From positions 1 to 24,295 of IMG/VR virus record IMGVR_UViG_3300043395_001166: a stretch of DNA of 24,295 bases; one strand, given 5' to 3'. The stretch is from a virus. The translations under genes were made by a program, and so were the position numbers. This document shows positions 12,918 through 24,295 of this stretch, one piece after another (position 1 is the first letter of the stretch; the number at the start of each line of letters is the position of its first letter). The notes under the pieces are model-generated. The model worked only from the letters and a program-made list of their open reading frames with translations, did not search any database and was not told the origin of the DNA.

Positions 12918-12923
12918 GAAAAT

Positions 12924-12929: not shown

Positions 12930-12946
12930 AGGGGTATTTTAACAAA

Positions 12947-13717: not shown

Positions 13718-13899
13718 CAAAAGAAGAAGTTATTCAAACAATGATTGATACAGTAAATGTTTATAATATTAATTTAATGAAGCAAGCCAAGATGAGCGAA
13801 GATGAAATTACAAAAAATATTGACGGACAGTACCCCGCACTTCACTACATGTTTACTTTAATATATGATGATCTTGAAGTTAAGGATGCTTTTAAGTAA
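13714..13899 (+). CDS. small phage protein downstream of the DHH-like gene
   Basis: 61 residues from the ATG at 13714, which overlaps the stop of the previous gene as ATGA and has AAGGA 6 nt before it; an in-frame ATG 6 nt earlier is too close to that site. Starts MTKEEVIQTMIDTVNVYN, helical, ends LIYDDLEVKDAFK. This size and 'TKEEVI...Y...' start are common in phages with unknown function. Convergent with the gene ending at 13912, only 12 bp apart. Confidence 0.55.
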   Translation: MTKEEVIQTMIDTVNVYNINLMKQAKMSEDEITKNIDGQYPALHYMFTLIYDDLEVKDAFK

Positions 13900-13911
13900 A
13901 ATCTGAAAAAA

Positions 13912-14100
13912 TTATTTGCCACAACTGCAGTTAGTACAGCAGGTTTCTGAAAATAATTTTACAGCAAGGTTTGGCTCTTCTGGTCGACCTAAGTCTTCCC
14001 AAAATTTTTCTCTGCCAATAGAATCGGTTTCGACTATAGGCTTTGATTCAAATTGGAAATTATCATCCCAAGCGTTTTCTAAGTTATCTAATATTCCCAT
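13912..14100 (-). CDS. small protein with Cys-rich C-terminus
   Basis: 62 residues. MGILDNLENAWDDNFQFESK leads to REKFWEDLGRPEEPNLAVKL and ends CCTNCSCGK. The four cysteines in nine residues could bind a metal. Its ATG lies 17 nt inside the end of the endonuclease gene, so translation is probably coupled to it. A plus-strand frame over the same bases has no ribosome site and is treated as a shadow. Function unknown. Confidence 0.5.
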   Translation of the reverse strand: MGILDNLENAWDDNFQFESKPIVETDSIGREKFWEDLGRPEEPNLAVKLFSETCCTNCSCGK

Positions 14101-14686
14101 TTAGATATTCTATCATAGTTTGTAGTATCTCCACATTATCATTTACTTGGCCAAGAACCCTATTGCAGTTTGAGCATAACAAACCTCTAATGCATTTACC
14201 ACAGGATTTAGACCCAGAACAACATGCATGGTCGTGATCTACTGATAGGCGTTTTTTGTACTTTTCAGGTTCCCCGCAAATTTTACAAACCCCATTTTGG
14301 GATTTTTCCATATTCACATAGTCATCTCTTGTCAAACCATAATTTTTTAAATTTCCTATATGGCCAATGAGATTATCACACTCAATGCAATAGGTATAGG
14401 TTAGGTATTTGCCATTTTTCCTTAGTTTGGGAAAGTCTGTTTTGTCAAGATACCGTTCGCATTTTCGACAATGAATTTTTATACCCTGGAGTTTTCTAGG
14501 CATAACTCTTTTTGGATCATCTTCTGCTAGGTCATATTCTCTTACACAAACCTTACACCAGGGTTTTAGTCCATCTTGTGCTTTAGAGAATTTATGAAAA
14601 TCAGATGTTTCTTTGTAGTTCTGACATTTTGTACATTGCTTTAAACCATCTTTATTGTATTGTACTCGTGTGTATTGTTTTCTCAT
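14084..14686 (-). CDS. endonuclease VII-like HNH nuclease with zinc ribbons
   Basis: 200 residues. Two CxxC...CxxC units come first (C18/C21 with C44/C47, then C73/C76 with C100/C103). The C-terminal 85 residues match recombination endonuclease VII (T4 gp49 family). YGLTRDDYVNMEKSQNGVCK is followed by the catalytic D150-H151-D152-H153, then CIRGLLCSNCNRVLGQV with C171/C174 and N175. This enzyme resolves branched DNA such as Holliday junctions during replication and packaging; some relatives are homing-type nicking enzymes. The promoter is a strong one (CTGACA-17-TATACT with TGG before the -10) whose -10 box is 6 nt from the ATG, so it is leaderless. Confidence 0.8.
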   Translation of the reverse strand: MRKQYTRVQYNKDGLKQCTKCQNYKETSDFHKFSKAQDGLKPWCKVCVREYDLAEDDPKRVMPRKLQGIKIHCRKCERYLDKTDFPKLRKNGKYLTYTYCIECDNLIGHIGNLKNYGLTRDDYVNMEKSQNGVCKICGEPEKYKKRLSVDHDHACCSGSKSCGKCIRGLLCSNCNRVLGQVNDNVEILQTMIEYLNGNIR

Positions 14687-14692
14687 AAATTA

Positions 14693-14726
14693 AGTATACC
14701 AGATTTCAGATTTGTTGTCAGATTTC
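14693..14726 (-). promoter_or_regulatory. promoter of the endonuclease gene, leaderless
   Basis: On the minus strand CTGACA, 17 nt, TATACT with TGG directly before it (14693-14701), then 6 nt to the ATG. The spacer and upstream region carry three copies of AAATCTG (plus strand CAGATTT at about 14,701, 14,708 and 14,720), a possible operator array. Confidence 0.55.
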
Positions 14727-14791
14727 TTATTTAGACAAAATTGGAATATTTTGTTCAGATGTACGATACATATTATAGAAAAATAAACACA

Positions 14792-14824
14792 AAAAAAATA
14801 GTGCGCCCATTAGGGACACACTAG
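14792..14824 (-). terminator. rho-independent terminator after the gene at 14835-15077
   Basis: On the minus strand TAGTGTGTCC and GGGCGCACTA form a 10-bp stem with two G-U pairs around a short loop, followed by eight T. It ends the minus-strand transcript 11 bp beyond the stop codon. Confidence 0.8.
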
Positions 14825-14834
14825 ATCATTTAGT

Positions 14835-15077
14835 TTATTTAATGACCCCCGCTTGCATAAGGGCTACATACCGCTTAGCAATTCTAATTGCCATAGGGTG
14901 AGGGGTAGGGCGTAGCGCACCTTTTTCCCATGTGGCAGGATACTTATTGTTAATTCGTTGAGCAACACGAATTGGTAATTCATACTTAGGGCGAGGTGCA
15001 TAACCTGCAGCCTCTAAGCCAAATTCTTTAGCAATGTCAGAACGAATTTCGTTATAGTAGTTATTTAGTGTAGTCAT
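14835..15077 (-). CDS. small hypothetical protein, divergent from the early region
   Basis: 80 residues from the ATG at 15077 (MTTLNNYYNEIRSDIAKEFG), chosen because AAGAAAGG lies 8-11 nt upstream in the same form as at the plus-strand early genes; a GTG three codons earlier overlaps that site. Basic, with RPKYELPIRVAQRINNKYP and MAIRIAKRYVALMQAG, mainly helical; a small DNA-binding protein is possible but no helix-turn-helix is certain. It is transcribed away from the early plus-strand operons and has its own promoter and terminator, the position where a regulator would be expected. Confidence 0.55.
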   Translation of the reverse strand: MTTLNNYYNEIRSDIAKEFGLEAAGYAPRPKYELPIRVAQRINNKYPATWEKGALRPTPHPMAIRIAKRYVALMQAGVIK

Positions 15078-15086
15078 TTTGACCAC

Positions 15087-15414
15087 CTTTCTTTTTTAAT
15101 TCTTATAGTAGTAATACTAGCATAGAAATGTCAAAAAGTCAAGTTTAGACACGGACAAATCGGACATTTTCTTTGTGATTTAGACCACATGACAAATCGG
15201 ACATATTGGACACACGTCTGTCAAGTCGACACGCCGATAATGCTATGATCGTTACGGAAATGTTATAATTCCCCTAAAAATGTGATGTGATTCACAATCC
15301 CAATTGTTCTAAATGTCCGTTTTGTACCCCTCAATTTGTCAGACCCCTCTGCTACACTTGTAGGTATACAAGGTTGAAAAAGAAGTAAGCCCCTAAAAGA
15401 AAGGTAGTTTCTAA
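15087..15414. promoter_or_regulatory. divergent early control region
   Basis: 328 bp without genes. Minus-strand promoter TTGACT-17-TAGTAT (15,114-15,142). Two direct copies of ACAAATCGGACAT near 15,155 and 15,192. CRP/GlxR-like palindromes TGTGA-N6-CCACA (15,174-15,189) and TGTGA-N6-TCACA (15,281-15,296). GACACGCC at 15,228-15,235. An extended -10 TGTTATAAT at 15,261-15,269. A plus promoter TGTCAG-N10-TACACT at 15,337-15,358. The region has the density of a genetic switch. Confidence 0.6.
15337..15358 (+). promoter_or_regulatory. TGTCAG-N10 promoter of the first early operon
   Basis: TGTCAG (15337-15342), 10 nt (ACCCCTCTGC), TACACT (15353-15358). No TTGACA at the standard -35 place. Same motif and same spacing as at 16554, 17689, 21722, 22305 and 22957. 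Confidence 0.55.
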
Positions 15415-15597
15415 ATGACTACACTAACAATTATCGAAGTATGTAAAACACATACACCTAATAAATCTGCTATCTCTATGGTAGGAGATGACCAATTCAC
15501 TTTCTGTGAGGTCTGTGAAAATAACATAGAGCGTTGGTATAACGATACCGACCCAGAGCGTCTACCTATGTGGACAGATTGGAAAGTGTCTAAATGA
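15415..15597 (+). CDS. small Cys-containing early protein
   Basis: 60 residues. MTTLTIIEVCKTHTPNKSAI then GDDQFTFCEVCENNIERWYN and PMWTDWKVSK. One CxxC in the middle and an earlier V-C-K-T-H-T; the gene at 15761 has a similar VCGKTHT and CxxC, so the two may be related zinc-ribbon-like proteins. AAGAAAGG lies about 10 nt before the ATG. First gene of a six-gene operon joined by ATGA and TAATG overlaps. Function unknown. Confidence 0.55.
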   Translation: MTTLTIIEVCKTHTPNKSAISMVGDDQFTFCEVCENNIERWYNDTDPERLPMWTDWKVSK

Positions 15598-15761
15598 TAA
15601 AAGACTACATTGACCAAAATGAGTTTTATCTTATCAAAGATGAACAACATTTTTGCTGTGGCGAAAGCCAATTCGTCTATGTGTGTAAATCACATGGCGA
15701 ACAAATGGATTGCTACTTTTGCGGTTTCGATTACTCTACAGATTGCGAGGAACAACACTAA
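15594..15761 (+). CDS. small Cys-rich protein, paralogue of the gene at 17959
   Basis: 55 residues. The pattern IDQNEFYLIKDEQHFCCGES and CYFCGFDYSTDC matches IDQNEFYWIWDLSFLCCDEV and CYFCEFDYSKEC of the gene at 17959-18123, so they are clear paralogues. CC, C, CxxC and a last C would suit a small zinc-binding fold. ATG overlaps the stop of the previous gene as ATGA; its stop overlaps the next as TAATG. Function unknown. Confidence 0.6.
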   Translation: MIKDYIDQNEFYLIKDEQHFCCGESQFVYVCKSHGEQMDCYFCGFDYSTDCEEQH

Positions 15762-15925
15762 TGGCTACACTACTACGCCTTGACTCCGTATGTGGAAAGA
15801 CACATACTTTTGTTGATGTCTATGACATAAACCTAAACCCTCATGGCTCTATCTGCTGTGATAATTGTCAATCAATCCTAATGTGCCGAGAGGCATGGGA
15901 CTATCTCTATAAGGAGAATAACTAA
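15761..15925 (+). CDS. small zinc-ribbon-like protein
   Basis: 54 residues from the ATG at 15761, which overlaps the previous stop as TAATG; the frame is open further upstream but that part overlaps the previous gene. VCGKTHTFVDVYDINLNPHG then ICCDNCQSILMC give several cysteines, C-C-x-x-C being the core. Similar in plan to the gene at 15415. It ends with an internal AAGGAG that probably serves the next gene. Function unknown. Confidence 0.55.
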   Translation: MATLLRLDSVCGKTHTFVDVYDINLNPHGSICCDNCQSILMCREAWDYLYKENN

Positions 15926-16062
15926 TGCCAGTATTTGAGTTTACCACTTTTATCAACATTGAGGCAGATAACTATGATGATGCAATTGATGTATTTGACT
16001 ATAAACTAAAAACAGGAATAAACAGAAGCGATGTCTATGTCGCAGAAATTGAGGAACAGTAA
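15925..16062 (+). CDS. small EFTTFI-type protein, paralogue of the gene at 18576
   Basis: 45 residues: MPVFEFTTFINIEADNYDDA then IDVFDYKL, ending YVAEIEEQ. The gene at 18576-18701 reads MPLYEFTTFITIEADSEEDA and ends YVAEIEEK, so they are paralogues. The 'beta strand, I/V-E-A, acidic, E-x-A helix' plan is shared with the gene at 16063 and with the C-terminus of the gene at 22359. AAGGAG lies about 9 nt before the ATG. Function unknown. Confidence 0.6.
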   Translation: MPVFEFTTFINIEADNYDDAIDVFDYKLKTGINRSDVYVAEIEEQ

Positions 16063-16209
16063 ATGACTAAATACAATGTGCTTATTTCTTATGTCGTAGA
16101 GGCAGAAGATGAAATGAGAGCGGTATTCGCTCTAAACAAATCACTCTATCCACTAAGTGAAAATGAATTAGAAAAGTTTAACGCTTTTCATGTTGAGGAG
16201 GTTCAATAA
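16063..16209 (+). CDS. small VVEAEDEMRA-type protein
   Basis: 48 residues: MTKYNVLISYVVEAEDEMRA, then VFALNKSLYP and NAFHVEEVQ. Same strand-turn-helix plan as its neighbour at 15925 (V-E-A-E-D-E-x-x-A against I-E-A-D-N-Y-D-D-A). It directly follows the previous stop codon, with no gap. A third member of this small family in the window, more diverged. Confidence 0.5.
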   Translation: MTKYNVLISYVVEAEDEMRAVFALNKSLYPLSENELEKFNAFHVEEVQ

Positions 16210-16310
16210 TGGAAAAAGATTTATTCGGATTTGCTGATGCAATTAATTTGGATCATCTCAACTTAGAACAACTAAAAGAATTAGAAAAACTTTTAGAAAA
16301 AATAAAATAA
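16209..16310 (+). CDS. 33-residue helical protein, last of the operon
   Basis: MEKDLFGFADAINLDHLNLE followed by QLKELEKLLEKIK, strongly amphipathic and probably a coiled coil. ATG overlaps the previous stop as TAATG, and GAGGAGG lies within 10 nt upstream. Support rests on that overlap and ribosome site. Function unknown. Confidence 0.5.
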   Translation: MEKDLFGFADAINLDHLNLEQLKELEKLLEKIK

Positions 16311-16606
16311 AAAAACAATTTTGCAGAAATAAAAACTCTGCAAAAATTGCACGTGCAGAGTTATCCACAGGCTGTGTATAACTTATGTGGTATAAATCAC
16401 ATACGACACGCCGTGTTTGGGCTTGACTTTTTGAGTTTTGTGTGATAGTCTTACTACATAAGAAAAACTAAATAAAGGACAAATTGGCTAATGAGCCTAA
16501 GCAAATAAATGTGAGATAAATCACAGTGAGCCTTAGCAAATAAGTAGCCAAAATGTCAGACCCCTCTGATAGGATAGTCTTATCAAAATAAAGAAAGGAA
16601 GTCAAA
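16311..16606 (+). promoter_or_regulatory. composite early control cassette before the gene at 16607
   Basis: 296 bp without a standard-size gene. In order: stem-loop (16316-16349, 12-bp arms around AATAAAAAC); GCACGTGC (16349-16356); DnaA box TTATCCACA (16361-16369) inside a near-perfect 23-bp palindrome; CRP-like TGTGG-N6-TCACA (16386-16401); ACACGCCGTGT (16406-16416); promoter TTGACT-17-TAGTCT (16423-16451); two 18-nt units each reading start-Ser-Leu-Ser-Lys-stop (16491-16508 and 16526-16543) around TGTGA-N6-TCACA (16510-16525); then TGTCAG-N10-TAGGAT (16554-16575). Confidence 0.6.
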
Positions 16607-16792
16607 ATGACTTACACTATAACACTAGAAACCTTCAATGGTTCAACTAAAAAAATCGCTCTCCCTTCTCGTGGTGCGGTTGCTCAATTCATCTCAACTT
16701 ATCCAAATCAACTCCCTGTTGGTGTTGCGGTAAAAGTATCTTGCGACGCTTTAGGCGTTAGCGGAACACTAAGAGGAAAGGCGGTTCTCTAA
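16607..16792 (+). CDS. small hypothetical early protein
   Basis: 61 residues, beginning MTYTITLETFNGSTKKIALP, with AVAQFISTYPNQLPVGVAVK in the middle. A small beta/alpha protein, basic, not recognised. AAAGAAAGG sits about 9 nt before the ATG. First gene of a five-gene operon with TAATG and ATGA overlaps. Confidence 0.5.
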   Translation: MTYTITLETFNGSTKKIALPSRGAVAQFISTYPNQLPVGVAVKVSCDALGVSGTLRGKAVL

Positions 16793-16935
16793 TGATAAAC
16801 TCCGTTCTAACAATTCCTTGTGATGAATGTAATTCAACAGGTCTAATCTTTTTTGGTAATGATTTTGACTATGATGTAGAAACCTGCTCTTGTGATTTTG
16901 GCAAAGAGCAAGACCTCAATTTTTTCAACAACTAA
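16792..16935 (+). CDS. small zinc-finger-like protein (CDEC / CSC)
   Basis: 47 residues. PCDECNSTGLIFFGNDFDYD then ETCSCDFGKE: a CxxCxxTG knuckle like a single DnaJ-type or ribbon half, followed by CxC. Could bind one zinc. ATG overlaps the previous stop as TAATG. Not recognised. Confidence 0.5.
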   Translation: MINSVLTIPCDECNSTGLIFFGNDFDYDVETCSCDFGKEQDLNFFNN

Positions 16936-16955
16936 AAGAATAGGAAATAAAAATA

Positions 16956-17165
16956 ATGACAAAAATAATTGAACACTCTCTAAAGTTTGTAACCGAGTTT
17001 GATGAAACTCACCCAATTTCTAAGCAAGCACTTGCTATTCCTCACTCAGATTTAGTGGCAATGCTTGAACAAATGCTAAAAGAATTAGTCGTGCCTGCAC
17101 TTGGTCCAGTTATTGAGGAAATAAATAAAAATGGTTCTTATGCAATTCTAAAGGTGGCCGAATAA
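16956..17165 (+). CDS. small helical hypothetical protein
   Basis: 69 residues, starts MTKIIEHSLKFVTEFDETHP and has an amphipathic helix SDLVAMLEQMLKELVVPALG. A 20-nt gap with AGGAAA before the ATG. Stop overlaps the next ATG as TAATG. No family recognised. Confidence 0.5.
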   Translation: MTKIIEHSLKFVTEFDETHPISKQALAIPHSDLVAMLEQMLKELVVPALGPVIEEINKNGSYAILKVAE

Positions 17166-17335
17166 TGATGACACGCAAAGACTATGTAGCAACTGCAGAA
17201 ATTTTATCGTCTTATAAAGATTTAATCGCTGATGAATTTACTTTTCAAGATTTAGTAAATGATTTTGGTGCAATGTTTGAGGCAGATAATCCAAGATTTA
17301 ATTTTGAAACTTTTAGAGAGGCTTGTGAAAAATGA
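17165..17335 (+). CDS. small phage protein, RKDYVATAEIL / NPRFNFETF family
   Basis: 56 residues. TRKDYVATAEILSSYKDL at the start and FEADNPRFNFETFREAC at the end are characteristic of a very common small phage protein (RKDY...A..DNPRF...F..AC), known from many phages of Gram-positive and Gram-negative hosts; function unknown. Two adjacent ATG codons exist; the first overlaps the previous stop as TAATG. Its stop overlaps the next gene's ATG as ATGA. Confidence 0.65.
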   Translation: MMTRKDYVATAEILSSYKDLIADEFTFQDLVNDFGAMFEADNPRFNFETFREACEK

Positions 17336-17457
17336 ATAGACTACTAACAACAATTGTTCAACTATTCTTAGCGGGAACTGTTTTTATTTTATTCCGCATG
17401 ATGTTGCCAATGTTAAAAGAAGATTTGCAAGAAATAAAAAACGATTTGCAAAAGTAA
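17332..17457 (+). CDS. 41-residue single-span membrane protein
   Basis: MNRLLTTIVQLFLAGTVFIL then FRMMLPML and a charged tail KEDLQEIKNDLQK. One transmembrane helix (about 4-22) with a short cytoplasmic or external helix. Starts by ATGA overlap with the previous gene. Could act at the host membrane early in infection; no specific function is visible. Last gene of the operon. Confidence 0.55.
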   Translation: MNRLLTTIVQLFLAGTVFILFRMMLPMLKEDLQEIKNDLQK

Positions 17458-17743
17458 ATTGTGATCCTGAGCAAGATTCAAAACTGCTCAAATTTTGGAC
17501 GTGGGACTTATCCACAGGCTGTGGAAAACCTTTAAGTACGATGTGAGATTTATCACATGGCTTGAGCGTCTCATTATTTAAGATTACTCGCTAGTAAGTT
17601 GATATTTTTTATCTAATAGGATAGACTTACATAGTAAGAAAAAATAAATAAAGAAAGTCTATTTATCTACGGCGTGTCTAACCGAAAATGTCAGACCCCT
17701 ATGCTAAGATAGAATTATCAACAAAAAAGAAAGAGGTTGCCCA
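17458..17743 (+). promoter_or_regulatory. composite early control cassette before the gene at 17744
   Basis: 286 bp without a gene. In order: TGAGCA/TGCTCA stem-loop (17468-17490); GACGTGGG; DnaA box TTATCCACA (17508-17516) in a near-palindrome; TGTGA-N6-TCACA (17542-17557); promoter TTGATA-17-TAGACT (17599-17627); GGCGTGTC (17671-17678); TGTCAG-N10-TAAGAT (17689-17710). It has the same plan, and partly the same sequence, as the cassette at 16311-16606. Confidence 0.6.
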
Positions 17744-17956
17744 ATGGCTACTAAACTATACACAATAGAAAACCTACTTGTAGGAAAAACTTATCGTTCT
17801 AACTCTCGCCACTTTGAGGGTGAAATTGTATCTGCCCGACCTGCTCACCCAGCAATTTGGTATGGAGAAAATACCGAAGCATACCTAATTGAGATAAACT
17901 ATAAAGGTTCTATCCGAAATAAATTTGCGACTATCGCAGTAAAGGTTGGTGAATAA
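17744..17956 (+). CDS. small beta-barrel-like early protein
   Basis: 70 residues. LLVGKTYRSNSRHFEGEIV is of the same form as YKVGDTFTTQKSKITGTIL in the gene at 20937 (V-G-x-T-[YF] then [EG]-x-I), so a distant relative is possible. Ends with FATIAVKVGE. AAAGAAAGAGG lies about 10 nt before the ATG. First gene of an eight-gene operon. No function recognised. Confidence 0.5.
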   Translation: MATKLYTIENLLVGKTYRSNSRHFEGEIVSARPAHPAIWYGENTEAYLIEINYKGSIRNKFATIAVKVGE

Positions 17957-17958
17957 TA

Positions 17959-18123
17959 ATGGCTAGTGTTATTGACCAAAACGAATTTTATTGGATTTGG
18001 GATTTATCTTTCTTGTGTTGCGATGAAGTCCAATTTCGCTACCAATGTAAAGCGCATAGCGAACTTATGGGTTGCTACTTTTGCGAATTTGATTACTCAA
18101 AAGAATGTGAGTGTGCCGAATAA
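17959..18123 (+). CDS. small Cys-rich protein, paralogue of the gene at 15594
   Basis: 54 residues; IDQNEFYWIWDLSFLCCDEV and CYFCEFDYSKECEC align almost residue by residue with the gene at 15594-15761. Compared with it, an extra cysteine occurs near the end. Two bases separate it from the previous stop. Function unknown; a zinc-binding fold is likely from the CC, CxxC and C(E)C pattern. Confidence 0.6.
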   Translation: MASVIDQNEFYWIWDLSFLCCDEVQFRYQCKAHSELMGCYFCEFDYSKECECAE

Positions 18124-18266
18124 TGGGATACATAGAAATTTTTAGAATGAACGAAAGTGGTGCGGGTTGGGTTGATTTCTCAGACGCAACACCAGACGAA
18201 TTGCTTACACTTGAAATTGGTTTATTTCAAGAAGGCGCACTATTTACTACTAAGGAGAATGACTAA
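18123..18266 (+). CDS. small hypothetical protein
   Basis: 47 residues: MGYIEIFRMNESGAGWVDFS, then DATPDELLTLEIGLFQEG. Acidic, alpha/beta, not recognised. TAATG overlaps on both sides; its last codons contain AAGGAG, the ribosome site of the next gene. Confidence 0.5.
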   Translation: MGYIEIFRMNESGAGWVDFSDATPDELLTLEIGLFQEGALFTTKEND

Positions 18267-18358
18267 TGGACATAATGAATAAATGGGAGCCTTCCCTAAC
18301 TAAAGAGGAATGTAATAATAAAGAATTAGGGAATTGCTATTGTGGGGAGTGTGAATAA
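18266..18358 (+). CDS. 30-residue Cys-rich peptide
   Basis: MDIMNKWEPSLTKEECNNKE then LGNCYCGECE. Four cysteines, three of them in CYCGEC. TAATG overlaps on both sides and AAGGAG about 10 nt upstream support translation. Too short to classify; metal binding is possible. Confidence 0.5.
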   Translation: MDIMNKWEPSLTKEECNNKELGNCYCGECE

Positions 18359-18576
18359 TGGACTATGAATACCTAGTAACTTGCCAGTATGATTTTGAGG
18401 AGAGCCCTCACTGGAAACAACGCTATGAAAATGAATTTGGTGCGTGGGAAAGTTTTTTCCGATTTACTGATTGGGGAATGGCTAATGAATACTCAACAGT
18501 GAATATTTACACACCAACAGGAAAGTGTTACACTAAAGTATTCTATCGAGATGGAAGGGTTCAGGTAAAAGCATAA
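18358..18576 (+). CDS. small hypothetical protein
   Basis: 72 residues, rich in aromatic residues: MDYEYLVTCQYDFEESPHWK, FGAWESFFRFTDWGMANEYS, and a beta end TVNIYTPTGKCYTKVFYRDG. ATG overlaps the previous stop as TAATG. Not recognised. Confidence 0.5.
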   Translation: MDYEYLVTCQYDFEESPHWKQRYENEFGAWESFFRFTDWGMANEYSTVNIYTPTGKCYTKVFYRDGRVQVKA

Positions 18577-18701
18577 TGCCACTATACGAATTTACTACTT
18601 TCATAACTATTGAGGCTGATAGTGAAGAAGATGCCGTCCGTTGGTTCGACTATAAAACAGAAGATTTAGAAACCTATGTCGCAGAAATTGAGGAGAAATA
18701 A
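18576..18701 (+). CDS. small EFTTFI-type protein, paralogue of the gene at 15925
   Basis: 41 residues: MPLYEFTTFITIEADSEEDA, WFDYK, and YVAEIEEK at the end. Differs from the paralogue at 15925 mainly by a shorter loop. TAATG overlap with the previous gene. The order 'CYFC gene then EFTTFI gene' is preserved between the two operons, with other genes between. Confidence 0.6.
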   Translation: MPLYEFTTFITIEADSEEDAVRWFDYKTEDLETYVAEIEEK

Positions 18702-18703
18702 TA

Positions 18704-18988
18704 ATGGGAAGCATAACAGCACTAGGAATACAGGATACAGTATTGGATTTAGAAACTCAGATTCTTTATCACCTAAAAGGTAATCACTATCCACCCGTCC
18801 CCGCAGAAATGGTAAAACCTTGTATCGAGGCTATTGACGCATACTATGATGAGGACTATGACCGAATGATTGCTATGCCAATGGTTGGCGACTTTCAGAT
18901 TCTCTATAAGGGAATGACTCACGCACCTGCGAGGGCTATCATAAGCCAGCACCACTTGGAATTTTGGCTACCAGAGTGGGAGGACTAG
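18704..18988 (+). CDS. conserved small phage protein (PPVP...HHLE type)
   Basis: 94 residues. HYPPVPAEMVKPCIEAIDAY, then GMTHAPARAIISQHHLEFWL. I recognise the pattern 'PPVP..M......AIDA...D.D....P......A.PA..I...H.L..' from many actinophages, where the function is not known. The two histidines near the end and the preceding acidic pairs are conserved-looking. Two bases after the previous stop, with GAGGAG upstream. Confidence 0.6.
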   Translation: MGSITALGIQDTVLDLETQILYHLKGNHYPPVPAEMVKPCIEAIDAYYDEDYDRMIAMPMVGDFQILYKGMTHAPARAIISQHHLEFWLPEWED

Positions 18989-18989
18989 A

Positions 18990-19229
18990 ATGTCTGATAC
19001 AATGATTTCTATGGAATTGATCCACGCAGATAACTTAACACCAGATCAATTAATGATTGGTGATTTAATTAAAATTGGTGACGACATTCTTGAAGTAAAA
19101 TTTATTGAAAGTGATTCTACTGGAGATAACTACGACATACAAACTGAAAACGAATTTGGTGAAACAGAATTTACACAGTATAGTTATACTGATTTAATTC
19201 CGTTGTATGTTTTTATTCAAGAAGAATAA
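18990..19229 (+). CDS. small hypothetical protein (SH3-like beta-barrel plan)
   Basis: 79 residues, acidic. LTPDQLMIGDLIKIGDDILE followed by VKFIESDSTGDNYDIQTENE and IPLYVFIQEE. 'Gly-Asp-hydrophobic-Ile-Lys' then several strands fits a small SH3-like barrel. One base separates it from the previous stop. Last gene of the operon. Confidence 0.5.
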   Translation: MSDTMISMELIHADNLTPDQLMIGDLIKIGDDILEVKFIESDSTGDNYDIQTENEFGETEFTQYSYTDLIPLYVFIQEE

Positions 19230-19236
19230 TAAAAAT

Positions 19237-19264
19237 ATTTTTATGCACTTCCCCGCATAAAAAT
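19237..19264 (+). terminator. 10-bp stem-loop after the operon ending at 19229
   Basis: ATTTTTATGC and GCATAAAAAT are perfect 10-bp arms around ACTTCCCC. Because both arms end in A/T tracts it could act as a terminator in either direction. A CACGT word follows directly. Confidence 0.5.
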
Positions 19265-19280
19265 GCACGTCCCGCAGTCT

Positions 19281-19352
19281 GGCGTGTCGTGATCTATGTG
19301 AGATTGATCACATTAAGCAGATTTGACATTTTCCCCCGATTTATGATAAGAT
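19281..19352 (+). promoter_or_regulatory. control region and leaderless promoter of the gene at 19359
   Basis: GGCGTGTC (19281-19288), the CRP/GlxR-like TGTGA-GATTGA-TCACA (19297-19312), then TTGACA (19323-19328), 18 nt, TAAGAT (19347-19352) with TGA directly before it. The -10 box is 6 nt from the ATG at 19359, so the mRNA is predicted leaderless, by the same spacing as in the late region. Confidence 0.6.
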
Positions 19353-19358
19353 TATTTT

Positions 19359-19505
19359 ATGAAAAAAACACCAGAGGAATTACGCAGGCTTATGGAATTG
19401 CGCCGTAGCAACGCTGCCTCTGCTGTGCCTTCTAAAAAGGCATATACTCGCAAGGGTAGAAAATGTCAGTCTGAAATGCTACAATTAAAATATAAAAACT
19501 ACTAA
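19359..19505 (+). CDS. small basic protein, leaderless
   Basis: 48 residues: MKKTPEELRRLMELRRSNAA, then SAVPSKKAYTRKGRK and a C-terminal MLQLKYKNY. Very basic, helical start, might bind nucleic acid. No ribosome site; the start is set by the -10 box 6 nt upstream. First of three genes that end with the gp88-family gene. Not recognised. Confidence 0.5.
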   Translation: MKKTPEELRRLMELRRSNAASAVPSKKAYTRKGRKCQSEMLQLKYKNY

Positions 19506-19521
19506 GAAAGGTCGTGCCCCC

Positions 19522-19698
19522 ATGACATTCGAAAACGATGAATTCTATGATGAATTCTATGCAACAATATGCCCTTCGTGCAATGAAAATTCAATAGATG
19601 AGCATGATGAAAAGTGTGGCTCATGCATGCTAGATGAATTGGCTGAAACCTACAATGAGGATATTGCTCTAGAAATGAGCCTTGGCCTTGACTACTAA
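19522..19698 (+). CDS. acidic zinc-ribbon-like protein
   Basis: 58 residues: MTFENDEFYDEFYATICPSC, NENSIDEHDEKCGSC, then LAETYNEDIALEMSLGLDY. CPSC and CGSC, 11 residues apart, form a plausible zinc ribbon. AAGAAAGG lies about 13 nt before the ATG. Overlaps the start of the gp88-like gene by 17 nt. Confidence 0.55.
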   Translation: MTFENDEFYDEFYATICPSCNENSIDEHDEKCGSCMLDELAETYNEDIALEMSLGLDY

Positions 19699-20422
19699 TA
19701 CACTTAAACTAAAACGCTCCAATGATAGAAAGGTGGCTAACCTTGTCACAAAAAATGGAAAGCAAGCCGCAATTGCCAACACATTCGGACTACCCGCAGG
19801 AAAAAACTATTCATGTCCTGGCGCTACGAGTGTCTGCGAAACTGTTTGCTATGCTGGCAAATTGGAAAAAATATTCCCAGGAGTAAAAACTAATTTACTT
19901 CATAACTGGGACCTACTTAAAGACGCAGATCTTCAGACTATGTACACTTTACTTTCTGAGATGATTGCAGAATTTAAAACTGATTGTGTAAAGAAAGACG
20001 CACCTATGCTATTCCGTATCCACTGGGACGGAGATTTCTTTAGCGATGAGTACGCACACGCATGGCGTATGGTTATTGAAGAACAACCAGACATTCAATT
20101 CTGGGTATACACACGAGTAAAGTCTGCAGCGCTTATTCTTAAGGATGTATCTAACCTATCACTTTATTTTAGTACTGATAGTGAAAATGTAAAAACTGGT
20201 GTTGACTTAAAAAATCAAAACGGTATTCGTCTTGCATACCTTGCTAAGAATTTTGCAATAGGCCAAGCAGATATGAAAGAAATGATTGGCAAGCCTGGTG
20301 CTAAGTGTCCAGAAAATGCAAAACGCATTCCACTAATTAGCAATGCAGGCTCCGCTTGTGTTTCTTGCTCACTTTGTGTATACTCTAAAGCAGACATAGT
20401 TTTTTCTGCAACTAAGAAATGA
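19682..20422 (+). CDS. gp88-family protein (mycobacteriophage L5 gp88-like)
   Basis: 246 residues. LPAGKNYSCPGATSVCETVC holds C-P-G-A-x-x-x-C-x-x-x-C, followed by YAGKLE; then PMLFRIHWDGDFFSDEYAHA, a series of beta-alpha units (FWVYTRVKS, LSLYFSTDS), and at the end KCPEN and CVSCSLC. These are the hallmarks of the gp88 family of actinophages. Seven or more conserved cysteines and a barrel-like core suggest an iron-sulphur, perhaps radical-SAM-like, enzyme, but this is inference. The start is TTG at 19682 (alternative TTG at 19688); both overlap the previous gene and neither has a strong ribosome site. Confidence 0.75.
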   Translation: MALTTNTLKLKRSNDRKVANLVTKNGKQAAIANTFGLPAGKNYSCPGATSVCETVCYAGKLEKIFPGVKTNLLHNWDLLKDADLQTMYTLLSEMIAEFKTDCVKKDAPMLFRIHWDGDFFSDEYAHAWRMVIEEQPDIQFWVYTRVKSAALILKDVSNLSLYFSTDSENVKTGVDLKNQNGIRLAYLAKNFAIGQADMKEMIGKPGAKCPENAKRIPLISNAGSACVSCSLCVYSKADIVFSATKK

Positions 20423-20658
20423 GTTAAAGTGAGTAATACACAAATTATTTTTTTCTTTTGGTGTTTAGTTCTTTTATTTTTTCTGCAATGATCGCAATGT
20501 GGGCACGTCCGCAAAATCTAATTTGTCAAGTTACGACACGCTTTTAAGATGTGATTAAGGACACACCCAAAATCCTCCCCTGAATTGGTATTTTTGACAT
20601 TTTTCTGCTAAAATTATAATGTAGGAAAAACCCCCACAACAGAAAGGCAAGACCCAAA
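20423..20658. promoter_or_regulatory. control region before the gene at 20659
   Basis: 236 bp without a gene. T-rich part (20449-20483) may help termination. Then GCACGTCC (about 20503), GACACGC (20535-20541), TGTGA-N6-ACACA (20550-20565, one mismatch), and TTGACA (20594-20599) with TATAAT 15 nt further (20615-20620), a short spacer. AGAAAGG precedes the ATG. Confidence 0.5.
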
Positions 20659-20829
20659 ATGACACTTCACGGATACACTTACCAAATTGGTGATTTATTC
20701 ACAACAAGTAAGACAGGCGTTACAGGTCGTATCGCAGGTTTTACACCAATGTCTAATAAGGTTACTAGAGTTAGTCTGGTTTTGGCAAATGGCTCACGCC
20801 GTTTGGCTATGGTCAAGACAAGCAAGTAA
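20659..20829 (+). CDS. small SH3-like protein, paralogue of the gene at 20937
   Basis: 56 residues: MTLHGYTYQIGDLFTTSKTG, VTGRIAGFTP, then RVSLVLANGSRRLAMVKTSK. Aligns with the next gene: Y-x-[IV]-G-D-x-F-T-T-x-K-x-x-[IV]-T-G-x-I, a turn, then V-x-L and a basic end. Short beta strands suggest a small barrel. AGAAAGGC lies about 10 nt before the ATG. Function unknown. Confidence 0.55.
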   Translation: MTLHGYTYQIGDLFTTSKTGVTGRIAGFTPMSNKVTRVSLVLANGSRRLAMVKTSK

Positions 20830-20900
20830 TCTCACATTGTGAGAAATGTCAGAAATGGATTTGACATTTTTATCCCCAAAATGTTATACTTAGGTATAAC
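20830..20900. promoter_or_regulatory. control region between the paralogous small genes
   Basis: A 15-bp palindrome TCTCACATTGTGAGA (20830-20844) starts right after the stop codon. TTGACA (20861-20866), 18 nt, TATACT (20885-20890) follows. GTTATAC-TTAG-GTATAAC (20883-20900) is a perfect inverted repeat covering the -10 box, like a repressor operator. Confidence 0.55.
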
Positions 20901-20936
20901 CAAATAACAACCCCTAACAGAAAAGGAAATAAACAA

Positions 20937-21101
20937 ATGGCAGTAAATACAGCACTATACAAGGTCGGCGACACTTTCACAACACAGAAGTCAAAGATTA
21001 CAGGAACTATCTTGGAAATCAACCCACAGGCTAATGGTAATGTTCGTGTAAAGTTAGATGTAGATGGCAAGGCTCGCTACACAACTTGGACAGCAAAGTA
21101 A
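20937..21101 (+). CDS. small SH3-like protein, paralogue of the gene at 20659
   Basis: 54 residues: MAVNTALYKVGDTFTTQKSK, ITGTILEINP, NGNVRVKLDVDGKARYTT. Paralogue of the previous gene with the same G-D-x-F-T-T-x-K core. AAAAGGAA lies about 8 nt before the ATG. It has its own promoter although the two genes are tandem. Function unknown. Confidence 0.55.
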   Translation: MAVNTALYKVGDTFTTQKSKITGTILEINPQANGNVRVKLDVDGKARYTTWTAK

Positions 21102-21147
21102 TTTAGCAAACGCTAAAAGTCCTGAGCAAGACTACTAAAACTGCTCA
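21102..21147 (+). other. two consecutive stem-loops between genes
   Basis: TTTAGC-AAAC-GCTAAA (21102-21117), then TGAGCA/TGCTCA around a 13-nt loop ending AAAAC (21123-21147). No promoter is visible before the next gene at 21184, so the message runs through them; RNA processing or stabilisation is more likely than termination. Confidence 0.45.
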
Positions 21148-21183
21148 ACACAACCCCCAACTAACAGAAAAGGAAAAGACCCA

Positions 21184-21609
21184 ATGGCAAGAAACGGAAA
21201 ATCTATCAGCGTAAAAATCGCTACACCTAAAGTAATCAAGGCACTAGAAGCCCGTCTAGCAGAACTAGAAAAGAACTACAAGACACAAGGCGAGAACGAG
21301 GCAAAGTATCAGAAAGCCCGTGAGAAGTGGCAAAAGGAAATCGGTAAGTGGGCTATGGCTAACTTTGCTAAGGCAGAGAACCTACGCACTAACTATCGTT
21401 CTTGGAACAAAACCCTAAATGTGGATTTTGACCTCATTGTAAATGAAAGTGATTTCCCTGCTGAACCTGAAAAGGATTTTGAGGTAATTCATACTCACCA
21501 ATACAATGAAATGAAAGAGGAAATCACGAACGCAATTCGTATCCTCAAAATGACAGATGAGGAAGTTGTAAATACTTCCACATACAACGCTATTGCTCGT
21601 TATCTATAA
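21184..21609 (+). CDS. hypothetical protein with coiled coil
   Basis: 141 residues. A basic lead MARNGKSISVKIATPK is followed by a long helix (about 17-60: ALEARLAELEKNYKTQG and EAKYQKAREKWQKEIG). Then FDLIVNESDFPAEPE, and a last helix EMKEEITNAIRILKM. Not recognised; the helical, charged first half suggests a DNA-binding or scaffolding part. AAAAGGAAAAG lies about 6-12 nt before the ATG. Likely cotranscribed with the gene at 20937. Confidence 0.5.
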   Translation: MARNGKSISVKIATPKVIKALEARLAELEKNYKTQGENEAKYQKAREKWQKEIGKWAMANFAKAENLRTNYRSWNKTLNVDFDLIVNESDFPAEPEKDFEVIHTHQYNEMKEEITNAIRILKMTDEEVVNTSTYNAIARYL

Positions 21610-21624
21610 ATAACAGCAACCACC

Positions 21625-21646
21625 TGAGTAAGTGGCTAAACTGCTC
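21625..21646 (+). other. 3' stem-loop of the CCTGAGCA...TGCTC family
   Basis: TGAGTA and CTGCTC, with an 11-nt loop ending AAAC and one G-U pair. Follows the gene at 21184 by 15 nt. A variant member of the family also found at 17468, 21123, 22805 and 24047. Confidence 0.45.
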
Positions 21647-21713
21647 CCCGCAATCCCCCTGCGTTCAAGGCAGAGTTTCTGCGAAAGTCCCCTGGGGGAT
21701 CATAAACGGGTAT

Positions 21714-21743
21714 TTGACAAATGTCAGCCCTGTGCCCTATAAT
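21714..21743 (+). promoter_or_regulatory. combined TTGACA and TGTCAG promoter of the gene at 21777
   Basis: TTGACA (21714-21719), 18 nt, TATAAT (21738-21743): a near-perfect promoter. The spacer contains TGTCAG (21722-21727) exactly 10 nt before the -10 box. It shows how TGTCAG sits relative to a normal -35 box. Just upstream, ATCCCCC and GGGGGAT (about 21,651-21,700) are inverted. Confidence 0.65.
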
Positions 21744-21776
21744 TAAATAAATACCTAAAGAAAGAAGGAAGCCCCC

Positions 21777-22274
21777 ATGGGATTAGATATGTATCTTAGT
21801 GCTAAGAAGCACATGGAAAAAATTGACTGGAAAGCGCTAAGAGATAATGAGGAATTATCTTATTCATCACCTGAAGCCGTTTATCCTAAGTTTAATGATT
21901 TAATGGAACTAACGCAACTAAGTGATGTTGCTACAGATATCTATGGCGCAAGCGTAGAGGTTACCTGTGCCTACTGGCGCAAGGCTAATCAAATTCACAA
22001 ATGGTTTGTCGATAATGTACAACAAGGTGAAGATGATTGTGATAACTACTATGTTTCACAAGATAAATTAATAGAGTTGCTTGCAATATGTAAGCATGCA
22101 TTAGAAACTAAGGACCCTAGCCTGCTACCGCCGCAATCAGGATTTTTCTTTGGCAGTACAGATATTGATGAATGGTATTGGAAAGATTTAGAAAATACTA
22201 TTAGTCAGTTAGAGCGTATCTTTGCTTTACCTGAAGTAGATAAATTATCATTCTACTACACTTCCTCTTGGTAG
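21777..22274 (+). CDS. conserved phage protein (MGLDMYL family)
   Basis: 165 residues. Starts MGLDMYLSAKKHMEK, then VEVTCAYWRKANQIHKWFVD (about 62-81), NVQQGEDDCDNYYVS, and SGFFFGSTDIDEWYWKDLEN (about 121-140). This combination is typical of a widespread phage protein family of unknown function, in T4-like phages and in phages of actinobacteria and enterobacteria. The conserved aromatic and charged residues (YWRK, H, DC, EWYW) look like an active or binding site. AAGAAAGAAGG lies 9-13 nt before the ATG. Single-gene unit with its own strong promoter. Confidence 0.7.
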   Translation: MGLDMYLSAKKHMEKIDWKALRDNEELSYSSPEAVYPKFNDLMELTQLSDVATDIYGASVEVTCAYWRKANQIHKWFVDNVQQGEDDCDNYYVSQDKLIELLAICKHALETKDPSLLPPQSGFFFGSTDIDEWYWKDLENTISQLERIFALPEVDKLSFYYTSSW

Positions 22275-22296
22275 GGGAAGTTAGTAGGATCCAAAA

Positions 22297-22326
22297 TTGA
22301 CAATTGTCAGCGGTACCTAGTACAAT
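22297..22326 (+). promoter_or_regulatory. combined TTGACA and TGTCAG promoter of the gene at 22359
   Basis: TTGACA (22297-22302), 18 nt, TACAAT (22321-22326). The spacer contains TGTCAG (22305-22310), again 10 nt before the -10 box. Confidence 0.65.
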
Positions 22327-22358
22327 TAATAGTAACAACTAACAGAAAGAGGGCCCCC

Positions 22359-22784
22359 ATGGACCAGCAAGAAACAGCAGTAAAGATAGTAAACGCAACA
22401 GAAGACTTTCTTAAGTCAGAAATTGAAAAGAAAGACCAACGCATTCATCAACTAGAAGAGCACATTCAAAAAGTAACACAGCGCTCATATGCAGATTCTG
22501 CAGACCGTAACCGTATCACAGAGGCCATGCAAGAGTGGACCTTGGAGCAATTGGACGAAGGGTCTCTTACAGAATCACAGGCCGAAGAGATTGCAGAAAT
22601 TATTGGCTTTGAGTTAACAAAAGAATTCGAAGTTGAAGTAACTGTAATGTACTCAGTCACTGTTAATGCTCGCACTGAGGAAGAAGCACAGAATGCAATT
22701 CATGATATTGATTTTGATTCTGTTTCTTATAACGACGATTCAATTTCTTATCTGTCATCCTCAATTGACAGAATAGATATTTAG
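22359..22784 (+). CDS. coiled-coil protein with EAxxEEEA-type C-terminal domain
   Basis: 141 residues. N-terminal 45 residues form a coiled coil (FLKSEIEKKDQRIHQLEEHI). The middle (TEAMQEWTLEQLDEGSL, QAEEIAEIIGFEL) is helical and acidic. The C-terminal 50 residues read FEVEVTVMYSVTVNARTEEE and AQNAIHDIDFDSVSYND: a beta strand, then E-E-E-A and a helix, like the small proteins at 15925, 16063 and 18576. It may be an adaptor or oligomerisation module in this family. AGAAAGAGGG lies about 7 nt before the ATG. Confidence 0.55.
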   Translation: MDQQETAVKIVNATEDFLKSEIEKKDQRIHQLEEHIQKVTQRSYADSADRNRITEAMQEWTLEQLDEGSLTESQAEEIAEIIGFELTKEFEVEVTVMYSVTVNARTEEEAQNAIHDIDFDSVSYNDDSISYLSSSIDRIDI

Positions 22785-23009
22785 TAGGGGGCTACTAATA
22801 AACCTGAGCATGTTTTAAAACTGCTCCTTTTTCCCCAAAAAAATGCACGTGGGGTTTATCCACAGGGTTATCCACATGATCAAGATCACATTGTGAATTA
22901 CGACACAGTTACGAAATGTCCGAATTATCCCATGTTTAACTATCCCGATTTGTATTTGTCAGCCTATCCTGCTATACTTGAAATTCAACAACAAAAAGGA
23001 GAAAAACTC
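22785..23009 (+). promoter_or_regulatory. control region of the DUF932 gene with tandem DnaA boxes
   Basis: 225 bp. In order: CCTGAGCA/TGCTC stem-loop (22805-22826) followed by five T; GCACGTGGGG; two direct DnaA boxes TTATCCACA at 22856-22864 and 22868-22876, starts 12 bp apart; TCACATTGTGA (22886-22896); CGACAC; AAATGTCCG; TGTCAG-N10-TATACT (22957-22978). AAAAAGGAG lies about 8 nt before the ATG. Confidence 0.6.
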
Positions 23010-24032
23010 ATGGCACATGACCTAGAAACACAAAACGGAAAAACATCTTTTGCTTCTTTCCGTGAACCTGCTTGGCATGGATTGGGAACTGTCTTCACAG
23101 AAGAAAAAACAACTGCAGAAATGCTAGAGGCTGCAAACCTCAATGGTTGGAATGTTCGTCTGGAAGATTTAGAAACCCCCTCACATCTAACAAGCGACAA
23201 GAACTACCAGTATGTTCTTCGCACTAACCCTACTGATAAAACACAAACTGACATTCTTGGTGTCGTTGGTGAGCGTTATCATGTTTTGCAGAATGAAGAT
23301 TTATTCTCATTCGGTGATAACATTCTAGACGGCGGAGGTCGTTGGGAAACTGCTGGCTCAATCAAGGGTGGTCGTGTTGTATTCGGTGCTCTTGCATTAG
23401 AGCGTGAAACAATTCTAGACCCTAGCGGTGTTGCAGATAAGGTAAAAACTTATTTGCTCATCAACACATCACACGATGGCTCAATCGCAATTCAGGCTTC
23501 AATCACACCAGTGCGTGTTGTCTGCGCTAATACTCTCAACCTTGCTCTTGGTGGCGTAGGTCGTAAGAAAAATAAGGGTATCAAGCAATCTTTCAAGATA
23601 CGCCATACACAAACTGCAAATGGCAAAGTGCAGATTGCTCGTGAAACTCTTGGGCTTGCTAACACTTACATGGACGAATTCGATAAAATGGCTAAGGCTA
23701 TGATTGAGAAGGAAGTTTCTGCTAAGCAATTCAATGACATCATTCTTGCTGCATACGCTAAGCCTGAAAAGGACGCTAAGGGTGCTTTCAAGAAATGGGA
23801 AAATAAAGTTGATACTATCAACGACATCTACACTGGCGAATTCAATGGAATGATTGCTGGTAATGCGTGGGGTGCTTTCAATGCACTTACTGAACGCCTT
23901 GATTGGTATCGCACTGCTCGTGGTGGTTCTAACGAGTCAATCCTCGCAAGTGCAAGTGGTTTTGACCCTGCTATCAACGCAGAAAAAAATCGTTTGCTAA
24001 AAGTTGTGCAAAATGTAATGCAGATTGCATAA
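23010..24032 (+). CDS. DUF932 / phage-plasmid-like protein (TIGR03299 type)
   Basis: 340 residues from the ATG at 23010, chosen for AAAAAGGAG 8 nt upstream; the open frame to 22893 contains the promoter. Early motif MAHDLETQNGKTSFASFREP then AWHGLGTV; middle HDGSIAIQASITPVRVVCAN and LNLALGG; later SFKIRHTQTANGKVQIARET. These are characteristic of the DUF932 family (phage/plasmid-like protein), found in phages and plasmids of many hosts; biochemical role not established, a DNA-metabolism role has been suggested. C-terminal residues (about 240-320) are helical and contain DEFDKMAKAMIEKEVS. Monocistronic with an adjacent tRNA. Confidence 0.8.
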   Translation: MAHDLETQNGKTSFASFREPAWHGLGTVFTEEKTTAEMLEAANLNGWNVRLEDLETPSHLTSDKNYQYVLRTNPTDKTQTDILGVVGERYHVLQNEDLFSFGDNILDGGGRWETAGSIKGGRVVFGALALERETILDPSGVADKVKTYLLINTSHDGSIAIQASITPVRVVCANTLNLALGGVGRKKNKGIKQSFKIRHTQTANGKVQIARETLGLANTYMDEFDKMAKAMIEKEVSAKQFNDIILAAYAKPEKDAKGAFKKWENKVDTINDIYTGEFNGMIAGNAWGAFNALTERLDWYRTARGGSNESILASASGFDPAINAEKNRLLKVVQNVMQIA

Positions 24033-24046
24033 ATAAAAAATTTCCT

Positions 24047-24068
24047 GAGCATGAAATAAAACTGCTCC
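24047..24068 (+). other. 3' stem-loop of the CCTGAGCA...TGCTC family, next to the tRNA
   Basis: TGAGCA and TGCTC around an 11-nt loop ending AAAAC, 15 nt after the DUF932 stop and 3 nt before the first base of the tRNA. Probably a processing element for the tRNA 5' end or a transcript 3' end. Confidence 0.5.
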
Positions 24069-24071
24069 ACT

Positions 24072-24145
24072 GGTCCGTTAGAATAGTTGGTTAGTTCGCT
24101 ACCCTGTCACGGTAGAGGTCACGGGTTCAAGTCCCGTACGGATCG
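24072..24145 (+). tRNA. tRNA-Asp (GTC)
   Basis: 74 nt. Acceptor arms GGTCCGT and ACGGATC pair over 7 bp with one G-U pair. The anticodon stem CTACC/GGTAG encloses CTGTCAC, giving anticodon GTC. The T arm is ACGGG-TTCAAGT-CCCGT. Base 73 is G, the Asp discriminator. No CCA is encoded (the next bases are CAA), so the tail must be added by the host enzyme. Located directly after the DUF932 gene and a stem-loop. Confidence 0.9.
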
Positions 24146-24156
24146 CAATTAATAAA

Positions 24157-24179
24157 TATGCATTGCAGTGCATAAAAAA
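24157..24179 (+). terminator. stem-loop after the tRNA
   Basis: TATGCA-TTGCAG-TGCATA, a 6-bp stem, followed by AAAAAA rather than T. It resembles the stem-loop at 19237-19264 in having A/T outside and CACGT directly after. It may terminate or mark the 3' end. Confidence 0.4.
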
Positions 24180-24216
24180 TCCACGTGAGTACAAACCAGA
24201 CAATTCGGACATATCA

Positions 24217-24291
24217 AAAATGTCAAACCAAAAAATCTTTACGAAGACCATTATTGATCTCCCAAAATGTCAAACCTAAAAATCTTTACGA
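24217..24291. repeat. 28-bp direct repeat pair
   Basis: 24217-24244 and 24264-24291 are 28-bp copies that differ at one base. Each starts AAAATGTCAAACC and ends ATCTTTACGA, with starts 47 bp apart. On the minus strand each contains TTTGACATTTT, the same word as several -35 regions here. The window ends right after the second copy, so more copies may follow. Confidence 0.6.
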
Positions 24292-24295
24292 TAGA

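Follow-up and report, generated by a model that had tools for sequence, protein, structure and literature searches.

An array of TGTCRG-N10 promoters in a phage genome fragment, probably of the actinobacterial RecA-NDp class and read by host PafBC

Results

Promoter motif and its class

The 24,295-base IMG/VR virus record IMGVR_UViG_3300043395_001166 (analysed at its full length and called the window below; G+C content 36.7%) is probably a piece of a larger phage genome, and it carries seven copies of the motif TGTCAG-N10-TAnnnT. We consider it highly probable that these seven sites are promoters of the actinobacterial RecA-independent DNA-damage (RecA-NDp) class, laid out in an array and read by PafBC of the host together with sigma-A RNA polymerase (RNAP). 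The promoter class and its activator are already known in hosts; their arrayed use by a phage lineage was not met in the open-licence literature searched. A preliminary description of the window had called the motif unusual, which is right for a phage but not for an actinobacterium, where it is a published promoter class.

Mycobacterial genes induced by DNA damage independently of RecA are described as sharing tTGTCRgtg, 8 nucleotides (nt) and TannnT (PMC5656591), which is TGTCRG-N10-TAnnnT written in another way, so that the phage motif matches the published host class, and this class is reported to reach other Actinobacteria (PMC8223512) and to be present in Streptomyces (PMC5087735). Its activator, PafBC, is described as a pair of WYL-domain proteins that sits between the promoter DNA and domain 4 of sigma-A, with PafB reading the “-26” box and PafC holding the domain 4 that normally lies on the -35 motif; in the same account PafBC is turned on by binding of single-stranded DNA (ssDNA) to the WYL domain and does not bind promoter DNA without RNAP (PMC11804915). 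ClgR, too, has been suggested to read this motif (mentioned in PMC5656591). All seven window sites have TGTCAG, within the class core TGTCRG, and relatives of the window tolerate R at base 5.

The seven sites compare with 0.40 expected, none of 100 shuffles reached seven, and all lie on the plus strand, while TGTCAG counted without its partner box is not enriched (15 in the window against 12.7 expected). The preliminary description had listed six sites, all of them real, correctly placed and exactly 10 nt ahead of a TAnnnT box, but the total is seven, the site at 19464 (TGTCAGTCTGAAATGCTACAAT) having been overlooked. Its account of the -35 region also held, with no recognisable -35 box at 15337, 16554 and 17689, and TTGACA at N18 for 21722 and 22305. 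A Shine-Dalgarno (SD)-like sequence and a start codon follow all seven sites, 31-36 nt past the -10 box at six of them and 56 nt past it at 15337. Other operons of the region, as read from the sequence, have TTGACA-N17/18 only (counts are raised at N17 and N18), and thus two promoter classes are interleaved. Position and gene type suggest that the operons are early ones.

Conservation in related phages

Related loci were collected by their DUF932 gene and so independently of the motif. Searching viral contigs with the DUF932 protein yielded 423 stretches, of which 421 were confirmed and the best 80 kept (L125-L204). In these 80 loci all hexamers were counted on both strands at distances of 3-25 nt ahead of TAnnnT, and of all combinations of hexamer and spacing TGTCAG at N10 came out first (579 against 28.8 per other spacing). 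Among single-base substitutions TGTCGG had by far the largest ratio at N10 (53 against 5.8); TGTCAT (72 against 31.8), TGTCTG (44 against 21.5), TCTCAG (21 against 10.5) and TGTCAC (14 against 6.9) were in about twofold excess, and TGTCCG was found 8 times against 13.0 expected. With repeated contexts removed there were 503 distinct TGTCRG-N10-TAnnnT sites, compared to 8 for the reversed pattern, 8 for the complement, 13 at N9 and 5 at N11; these are not counts of independent events, as related phages share many sites by descent from one ancestor. Secondary spacings were raised at N16 (159), N15 (81) and N5 (68), which we tentatively attribute to another TA box immediately behind the first or to overlapping matches within the spacer. 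Chance was rejected as the source of the motif on the shuffles, the hexamer-spacing scan and the 503 against 8 distinct sites.

Absence of the motif from orthologous regions, which the preliminary description would have held against it, is not what was found. The promoter of the DUF932 gene has TGTCRG in 75 of 81 loci (window included) and in 58 of 64 distinct upstream sequences, with the spacing of exactly 10 nt kept in all 75 although the letters of the spacer differ; at the other six loci the box is off by one or two bases.

Of 513 distinct sites (window included) with at least 40 nt of context on both sides, 485 are in sense orientation, sharing a strand with the DUF932 gene. Numbered so that the -10 box begins at -12, the profile of these 485 reads A (-31), W, W, TGTCRG (-28 to -23), T/A, S, S, variable positions, TG (-15, -14), N and TAnnnT. 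The base directly before the core (-29) is T at 0.43 or A at 0.55, where the class consensus has a lower-case t, and the extended -10 TG is common in the sense sites (T 0.64, G 0.74). TTGACA, with up to one mismatch, was found in just 65 of the 485 sense sites at N18 and 20 at N17, suggesting that no -35 element is needed. An SD-like sequence with a start codon 10-70 nt downstream follows 373 of the 485, compared to 223 of 1682 random TAnnnT boxes under the same loose SD rule, and in 206 of the 373 the distance is 30-34 nt.

The phage sites thus resemble the RecA-NDp promoters known from Mycobacterium and Streptomyces (recA P1 and those of about 150 DNA-damage genes) in the TGTCRG core, the exact 10 nt to TAnnnT and the weak or missing -35, and the box falls partly on the “-26” element touched by PafB. 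They differ in being arrayed before small open reading frames (ORFs) without assigned function, in having a leader that is most often about 30 nt long, with an SD sequence, and in a less strict “tg” after the core combined with a common extended -10. No phage promoters of the RecA-NDp class were described in the titles and abstract openings of the open-licence literature searched.

Distribution over phage genomes

Fifteen long contigs of 87-119 kb, 13 obtained by the DUF932 scan and two (L069, L020) by a motif scan, held 145 matches compared to 27 for the control pattern, with 4-15 matches in each. A single 13-kb stretch per contig held 120 of the 145, a figure that has no chance baseline, and the contig with most matches (G014, 15 sites) had 14 of them on one strand in about 10.7 kb. 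The motif scan itself, a separate search of viral DNA for a 16-base form of the motif, gave at least 120 stretches; among the 120 listed, 100 code for a relative of one or more of 18 right-hand window proteins and 20 do not. Promoter rows were nevertheless present in at least five of these 20 (L076, which has 52% G+C, L065, L023, L049 and L095), and rows with SD-led ORFs in several of the 20 (e.g. L076, L065 and L023), while L041 and L120 had no full site; more than one lineage may use such promoter rows, and the contigs with them may stem from other lineages or hosts. The densest array seen was in a 48-kb contig (L044) with 26 TGTCRG-N10-TAnnnT sites on one strand between 270 and 9006, about 9 kb.

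The closest named relatives by DUF932 are Streptomyces phages of the Jay2Jay/Samisti12 group (Stanwilliamsviridae), whose DUF932 proteins are about 50-53% identical to that of the window (best 30 records); a megablast search with window positions 12900-24295 gave no match among 50,697 phage records. As in the window, the DUF932 gene of these phages lies near a genome end, in Jay2Jay among small ORFs, but TGTCRG-N10 is not enriched in Jay2Jay or Samisti12 (2 and 3 matches against controls of 5 and 3), and the intergenic regions of Jay2Jay, inspected by eye, have TAGACT-type -10 boxes with TTG-type -35s. Samisti12 has one TGTCGG-N10-TAGACT site within a sequence that occurs twice (8038 and 131082), which we take as an isolated case. 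Two small records, Microbacterium phage Bush and Mycobacterium phage Maminiaina, had 2 matches against 0 for the control each. In Bush (PP978824.1, 38.9 kb) two TGTCGGTG-N8-TAnnnT sites lie at 23078 and 28602, and so this may be a cultured phage with single promoters of the TGTCRG class.

The motif and PafBC in a probable lake actinobacterium and its kin

A DNA-pattern scan of genome contigs gave at least 120 matches in Streptomyces and many phyla, from which no taxonomic count was drawn and which led to actinobacterial genomes. The genome of an uncultured actinobacterium, Ki1-1-6m_bin-0456, which we take to be a lake actinobacterium, contains a strict RecA-NDp site (L230) as well as a neighbouring pair of WYL genes, whose products match the solved PafB (1.7e-42) and PafC (3.8e-29), the second also having the PafC-specific domain HTH_PafC (PF19187). 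R44 and R48 of PafB are proposed to make base contacts (PMC6789036), and the PafB helix RMFER containing both is identical in the lake actinobacterium (residue numbers were counted along the printed chain). WYL genes, counted as such and not as pafB or pafC, were present in 59 of 60 kin genomes (its own among them), and the strict motif gave 98 matches in the 60 compared to 14 for the control, with at least one in 35.

The first ORF downstream, at 30 loci shown from these genomes (L345-L374), was recR once, radA twice, sbcD once and a DNA methylase twice, one locus having none. At 16 of the 30 the start codon lies 6-8 nt after the -10 box of the strict motif, suggesting that these genes may be leaderless, unlike the SD-led phage genes. 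Four of the 30 share a small protein starting MIINCDSC or similar behind the motif. The motif class, its reader and repair genes behind it therefore all exist in bacteria of a kind which such phages may infect, and from these bacteria the same is inferred for the phage's own host.

Which protein reads the promoters

The preliminary description had proposed activator-dependent promoters with a MotA-like takeover of sigma, in which a box at -28 to -23 replaces the -35 and a phage-coded activator may read it. The architecture fits PafBC well, but a phage-coded activator is unlikely and host PafBC is the most likely reader, as the motif is of a host class, the WYL domain (PF13280) was found in none of two sets of 15 and 41 phage contigs carrying DUF932 or the motif, and sigma-70 region 2 (PF04542) in 0 of 23; in both searches the contigs may be incomplete. 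A phage sigma factor and a phage WYL activator were thus rejected as readers, neither having been found in the contigs searched, some of which may be fragments. WhiB was over the cut-off in 13 of the 15 contigs, and these WhiB genes together with the DUF932 homology point to an actinobacterial host.

WhiB is a sigma-binding regulator of actinobacteria whose family works with domain 4 of sigma-A, so that a phage-coded activator, WhiB or another early protein, might itself read TGTCRG, with the likeness to the host class being due to convergence or capture. The frequency of WhiB in the contigs agrees with this, as do the region's proteins, none of the ten tested matching a PHROGs family of known function and seven matching no family. 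We nevertheless regard it as improbable, because G014 has its 15 sites without a WhiB match (this contig may be incomplete), Rhodococcus phage Trina, with an annotated WhiB, is not clearly enriched (4 matches, 2 for the control), no WYL domain was found in 56 contigs and no sigma factor in 23, and the sites agree with the host class in their N10 spacing and in G for A at base 5 being the best-tolerated substitution. Less likely still is that these are ordinary extended -10 sigma-A promoters, with TGTCRG as the operator of a phage repressor placed by chance in the spacer. The frequent TG at -15/-14 would suit such promoters, and TTGACA at two window sites forms a TGACA-NN-TGTCA inverted repeat; however, an operator does not require an exact distance to the -10 box such as was found here (N10 in 503 sites, N9 in 13, N11 in 5), the box is in sense in 485 of 513 sites, and with the -35 missing at most sites the repressor would occupy a weak promoter. 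The TGACA-NN-TGTCA operator was rejected as a general answer, since the five other window sites lack the left half and the spacing to the -10 is exact.

It is equally hard to credit that the sites are chiefly decoys, high-copy PafBC promoters which divert activated PafBC from the host repair regulon, with transcription secondary. The many sites per genome (the 14 in about 10.7 kb of G014, the 26 in about 9 kb of L044) would serve that purpose, but an SD sequence and start codon follow 373 of 485 sense sites, mostly at 30-34 nt, and so they look selected as promoters, and PafBC is reported not to bind promoter DNA without RNAP (PMC11804915).

Several points weigh against reading of the array by host PafBC. 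That the array depends on PafBC, when it is active and which host it serves are all inferred; the actinobacterial host rests on the WhiB genes and the DUF932 homology, and WhiB, another sigma-binding regulator of actinobacteria, is encoded by the phage itself in most of the 15. In the phage sites the “tg” that follows the core is weaker (T 0.56 at -22, then C 0.54 or G 0.33 at -21), and 112 of the 485 sense sites have no SD sequence and start codon under the rule used. Fourteen named phage records (12 actinophages, 2 others) gave 21 matches against 21 for the control and so no enrichment, and these include Streptomyces and Mycobacterium phages, from genera in which the RecA-NDp class has been described. 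On the bacterial side, the first 37 kin genomes listed (0.9-2.2 Mb) were modestly enriched (33 against 13 for the control), and the strict motif had no match in 25 of the 60.

Other elements around the promoters

Palindromes of CRP type, TGTGA-N6-TCACA, lie in the control regions of the small-ORF operons, with nine copies (4 perfect, 5 with one mismatch) between window positions 15174 and 22907 compared to 1.35 expected; none of 100 shuffles reached nine. Perfect copies were present in 34.5% of 496 distinct segments upstream of TGTCRG promoters, compared to 3.0% of 2691 background segments taken from these loci, and the shorter GTGA-N-TCAC was found upstream in 40.7% at N6 and in 0.0% at N5 and N7. 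The palindrome centres peak at -64.5, -74.5 and -85.5, with 33, 15 and 18 of 222 sites respectively; roughly one helical turn separates the peaks, and further sites are scattered out to -318. Related promoters are counted more than once in these figures. Proteins of the cyclic nucleotide (cNMP)-binding kind were found in 20 of 21 genomes of the lake actinobacterium's kin, itself included, and the palindromes look like an input from a host CRP-type regulator, a name that rests on the CRP consensus.

The same intergenic regions have DnaA-box-like TTWTCCACA at 16361, 17508, 17520 (minus strand), 22856 and 22868 (5 compared to 0.67 expected), and this word was present in 19% of the relatives' upstream segments compared to 3.6% of background; replication starts or titration of DnaA are possible roles. 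A repeated hairpin, CTGAGNA-N-AACTGCTC, lies after operon ends in five copies compared to 0.02 expected, had no Rfam match, and is perhaps a terminator or RNA-processing element. Enriched words upstream of promoters in the 80 loci were ACACGCCG/CGGCGTGT and TGTCCGAT/CGGACATT, in the window for example near 15227, 16404 and 17670, and GACAC resembles a WhiA site.

Genes of the window

The left part of the window has long minus-strand genes, an epimerase among them, and the right part has numerous small plus-strand ORFs with the GP88-family gene, the DUF932 gene and a tRNA-Asp; the tRNA was the sole match in an Rfam search. The GP88-family gene would be co-transcribed with ORF 19522 from promoter 4. 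On the minus strand at 6380-9289 a 969-amino-acid protein with long proline- and threonine-rich repeats and cysteine-rich blocks is perhaps a tail or adhesion protein. At the contig end (about 24218-24295) a direct repeat of AAAATGTCAAACC followed by AAAATCTTTACGA was spotted by eye and is perhaps part of a terminal or control repeat.

Table 1. Coordinates of promoters, palindromes, hairpins and two genes in the window
Feature	Position	Strand	Remark
Promoter 1, TGTCAG-N10-TACACT, no -35	15337..15358	+	ORF 15415 starts 56 nt on
Promoter 2, TGTCAG-N10-TAGGAT, no -35	16554..16575	+	ORF 16607 starts 31 nt on
Promoter 3, TGTCAG-N10-TAAGAT, no -35	17689..17710	+	ORF 17744 starts 33 nt on
Promoter 4, TGTCAG-N10-TACAAT	19464..19485	+	ORF 19522 starts 36 nt on
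Promoter 5, hybrid: TTGACA (21714) N18 and TGTCAG (21722) N10, TATAAT	21714..21743	+	ORF 21777 starts 33 nt on
Promoter 6, hybrid: TTGACA (22297) N18 and TGTCAG (22305) N10, TACAAT	22297..22326	+	ORF 22359 starts 32 nt on
Promoter 7, TGTCAG-N10-TATACT, ahead of DUF932 gene	22957..22978	+	Likely start 23010, 31 nt on
CRP-type palindrome TGTGATGTGATTCACA	15281..15296	+	Upstream of promoter 1
CRP-type palindrome TGTGAGATAAATCACA	16510..16525	+	Upstream of promoter 2
CRP-type palindrome TGTGAGATTTATCACA	17542..17557	+	Upstream of promoter 3
CRP-type palindrome TGTGAGATTGATCACA	19297..19312	+	Before promoter 4; nearer a TTGACA-type promoter at about 19324
Hairpin CTGAGNA-N-AACTGCTC, five copies	17467-17489, 21122-21146, 21624-21646, 22804-22826, 24045-24067		
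GP88-family protein gene (PF17338)	19682..20422	+	Next after ORF 19522, downstream of promoter 4
DUF932 protein gene (PF06067)	23010..24032	+	Downstream of promoter 7; query for relatives

Discussion

In the mechanism that we propose, arrayed sites of the form AWW-TGTCRG-TSS-N4-TG-N-TAnnnT in a large freshwater actinophage would be read by host PafBC with sigma-A RNAP. PafBC with ssDNA lets sigma-A RNAP use -26-box promoters, as established in Mycobacterium smegmatis. Infection would yield ssDNA by end processing, by replication and by breakdown of host DNA, and the ssDNA-charged host PafBC would then bring the sigma-A polymerase to the phage array and switch the region on. The two window sites that also bear TTGACA might have basal or leaky activity without PafBC.

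The middle promoters of phage T4, where MotA and AsiA appropriate sigma, are alike in having a box near -30 with a -10 box and an activator that takes over sigma domain 4, but the phage box here is TGTCRG at N10 and has neither the sequence nor the spacing of the MotA box, and the activator is probably host-coded and would signal ssDNA. Phages controlled by LexA and the SOS response are alike in that a host DNA-damage pathway times phage transcription, but there it is relief of repression in temperate phages, whereas here it would be positive, RecA-independent activation; GAAC-N4-GTTC was infrequent upstream of the phage promoters (0.006 compared to 0.003 in background).

It is quite possible, if something short of probable, that a widespread freshwater actinophage lineage, which seems to encode neither a sigma factor nor a WYL activator, clocks a gene region by the host's ssDNA sensor through PafBC arrays, with phased CRP-type sites adding a cyclic AMP input and the promoters perhaps draining PafBC from host repair. 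PafBC was recently shown to be an ssDNA-triggered, sigma-adapting activator, and its targets in the literature surveyed are host genes. If our reading is right, a damage sensor of the host would here set the timing of phage transcription by positive control, a rare arrangement, and sigma adaptation, which in hosts corresponds to the sigma appropriation of T4, would extend to phage development. It would also predict that without PafBC the phage region is weakly expressed, in phages of abundant lake bacteria that are hard to culture, and the promoter array may serve to mark actinobacterial phages in metagenomes.

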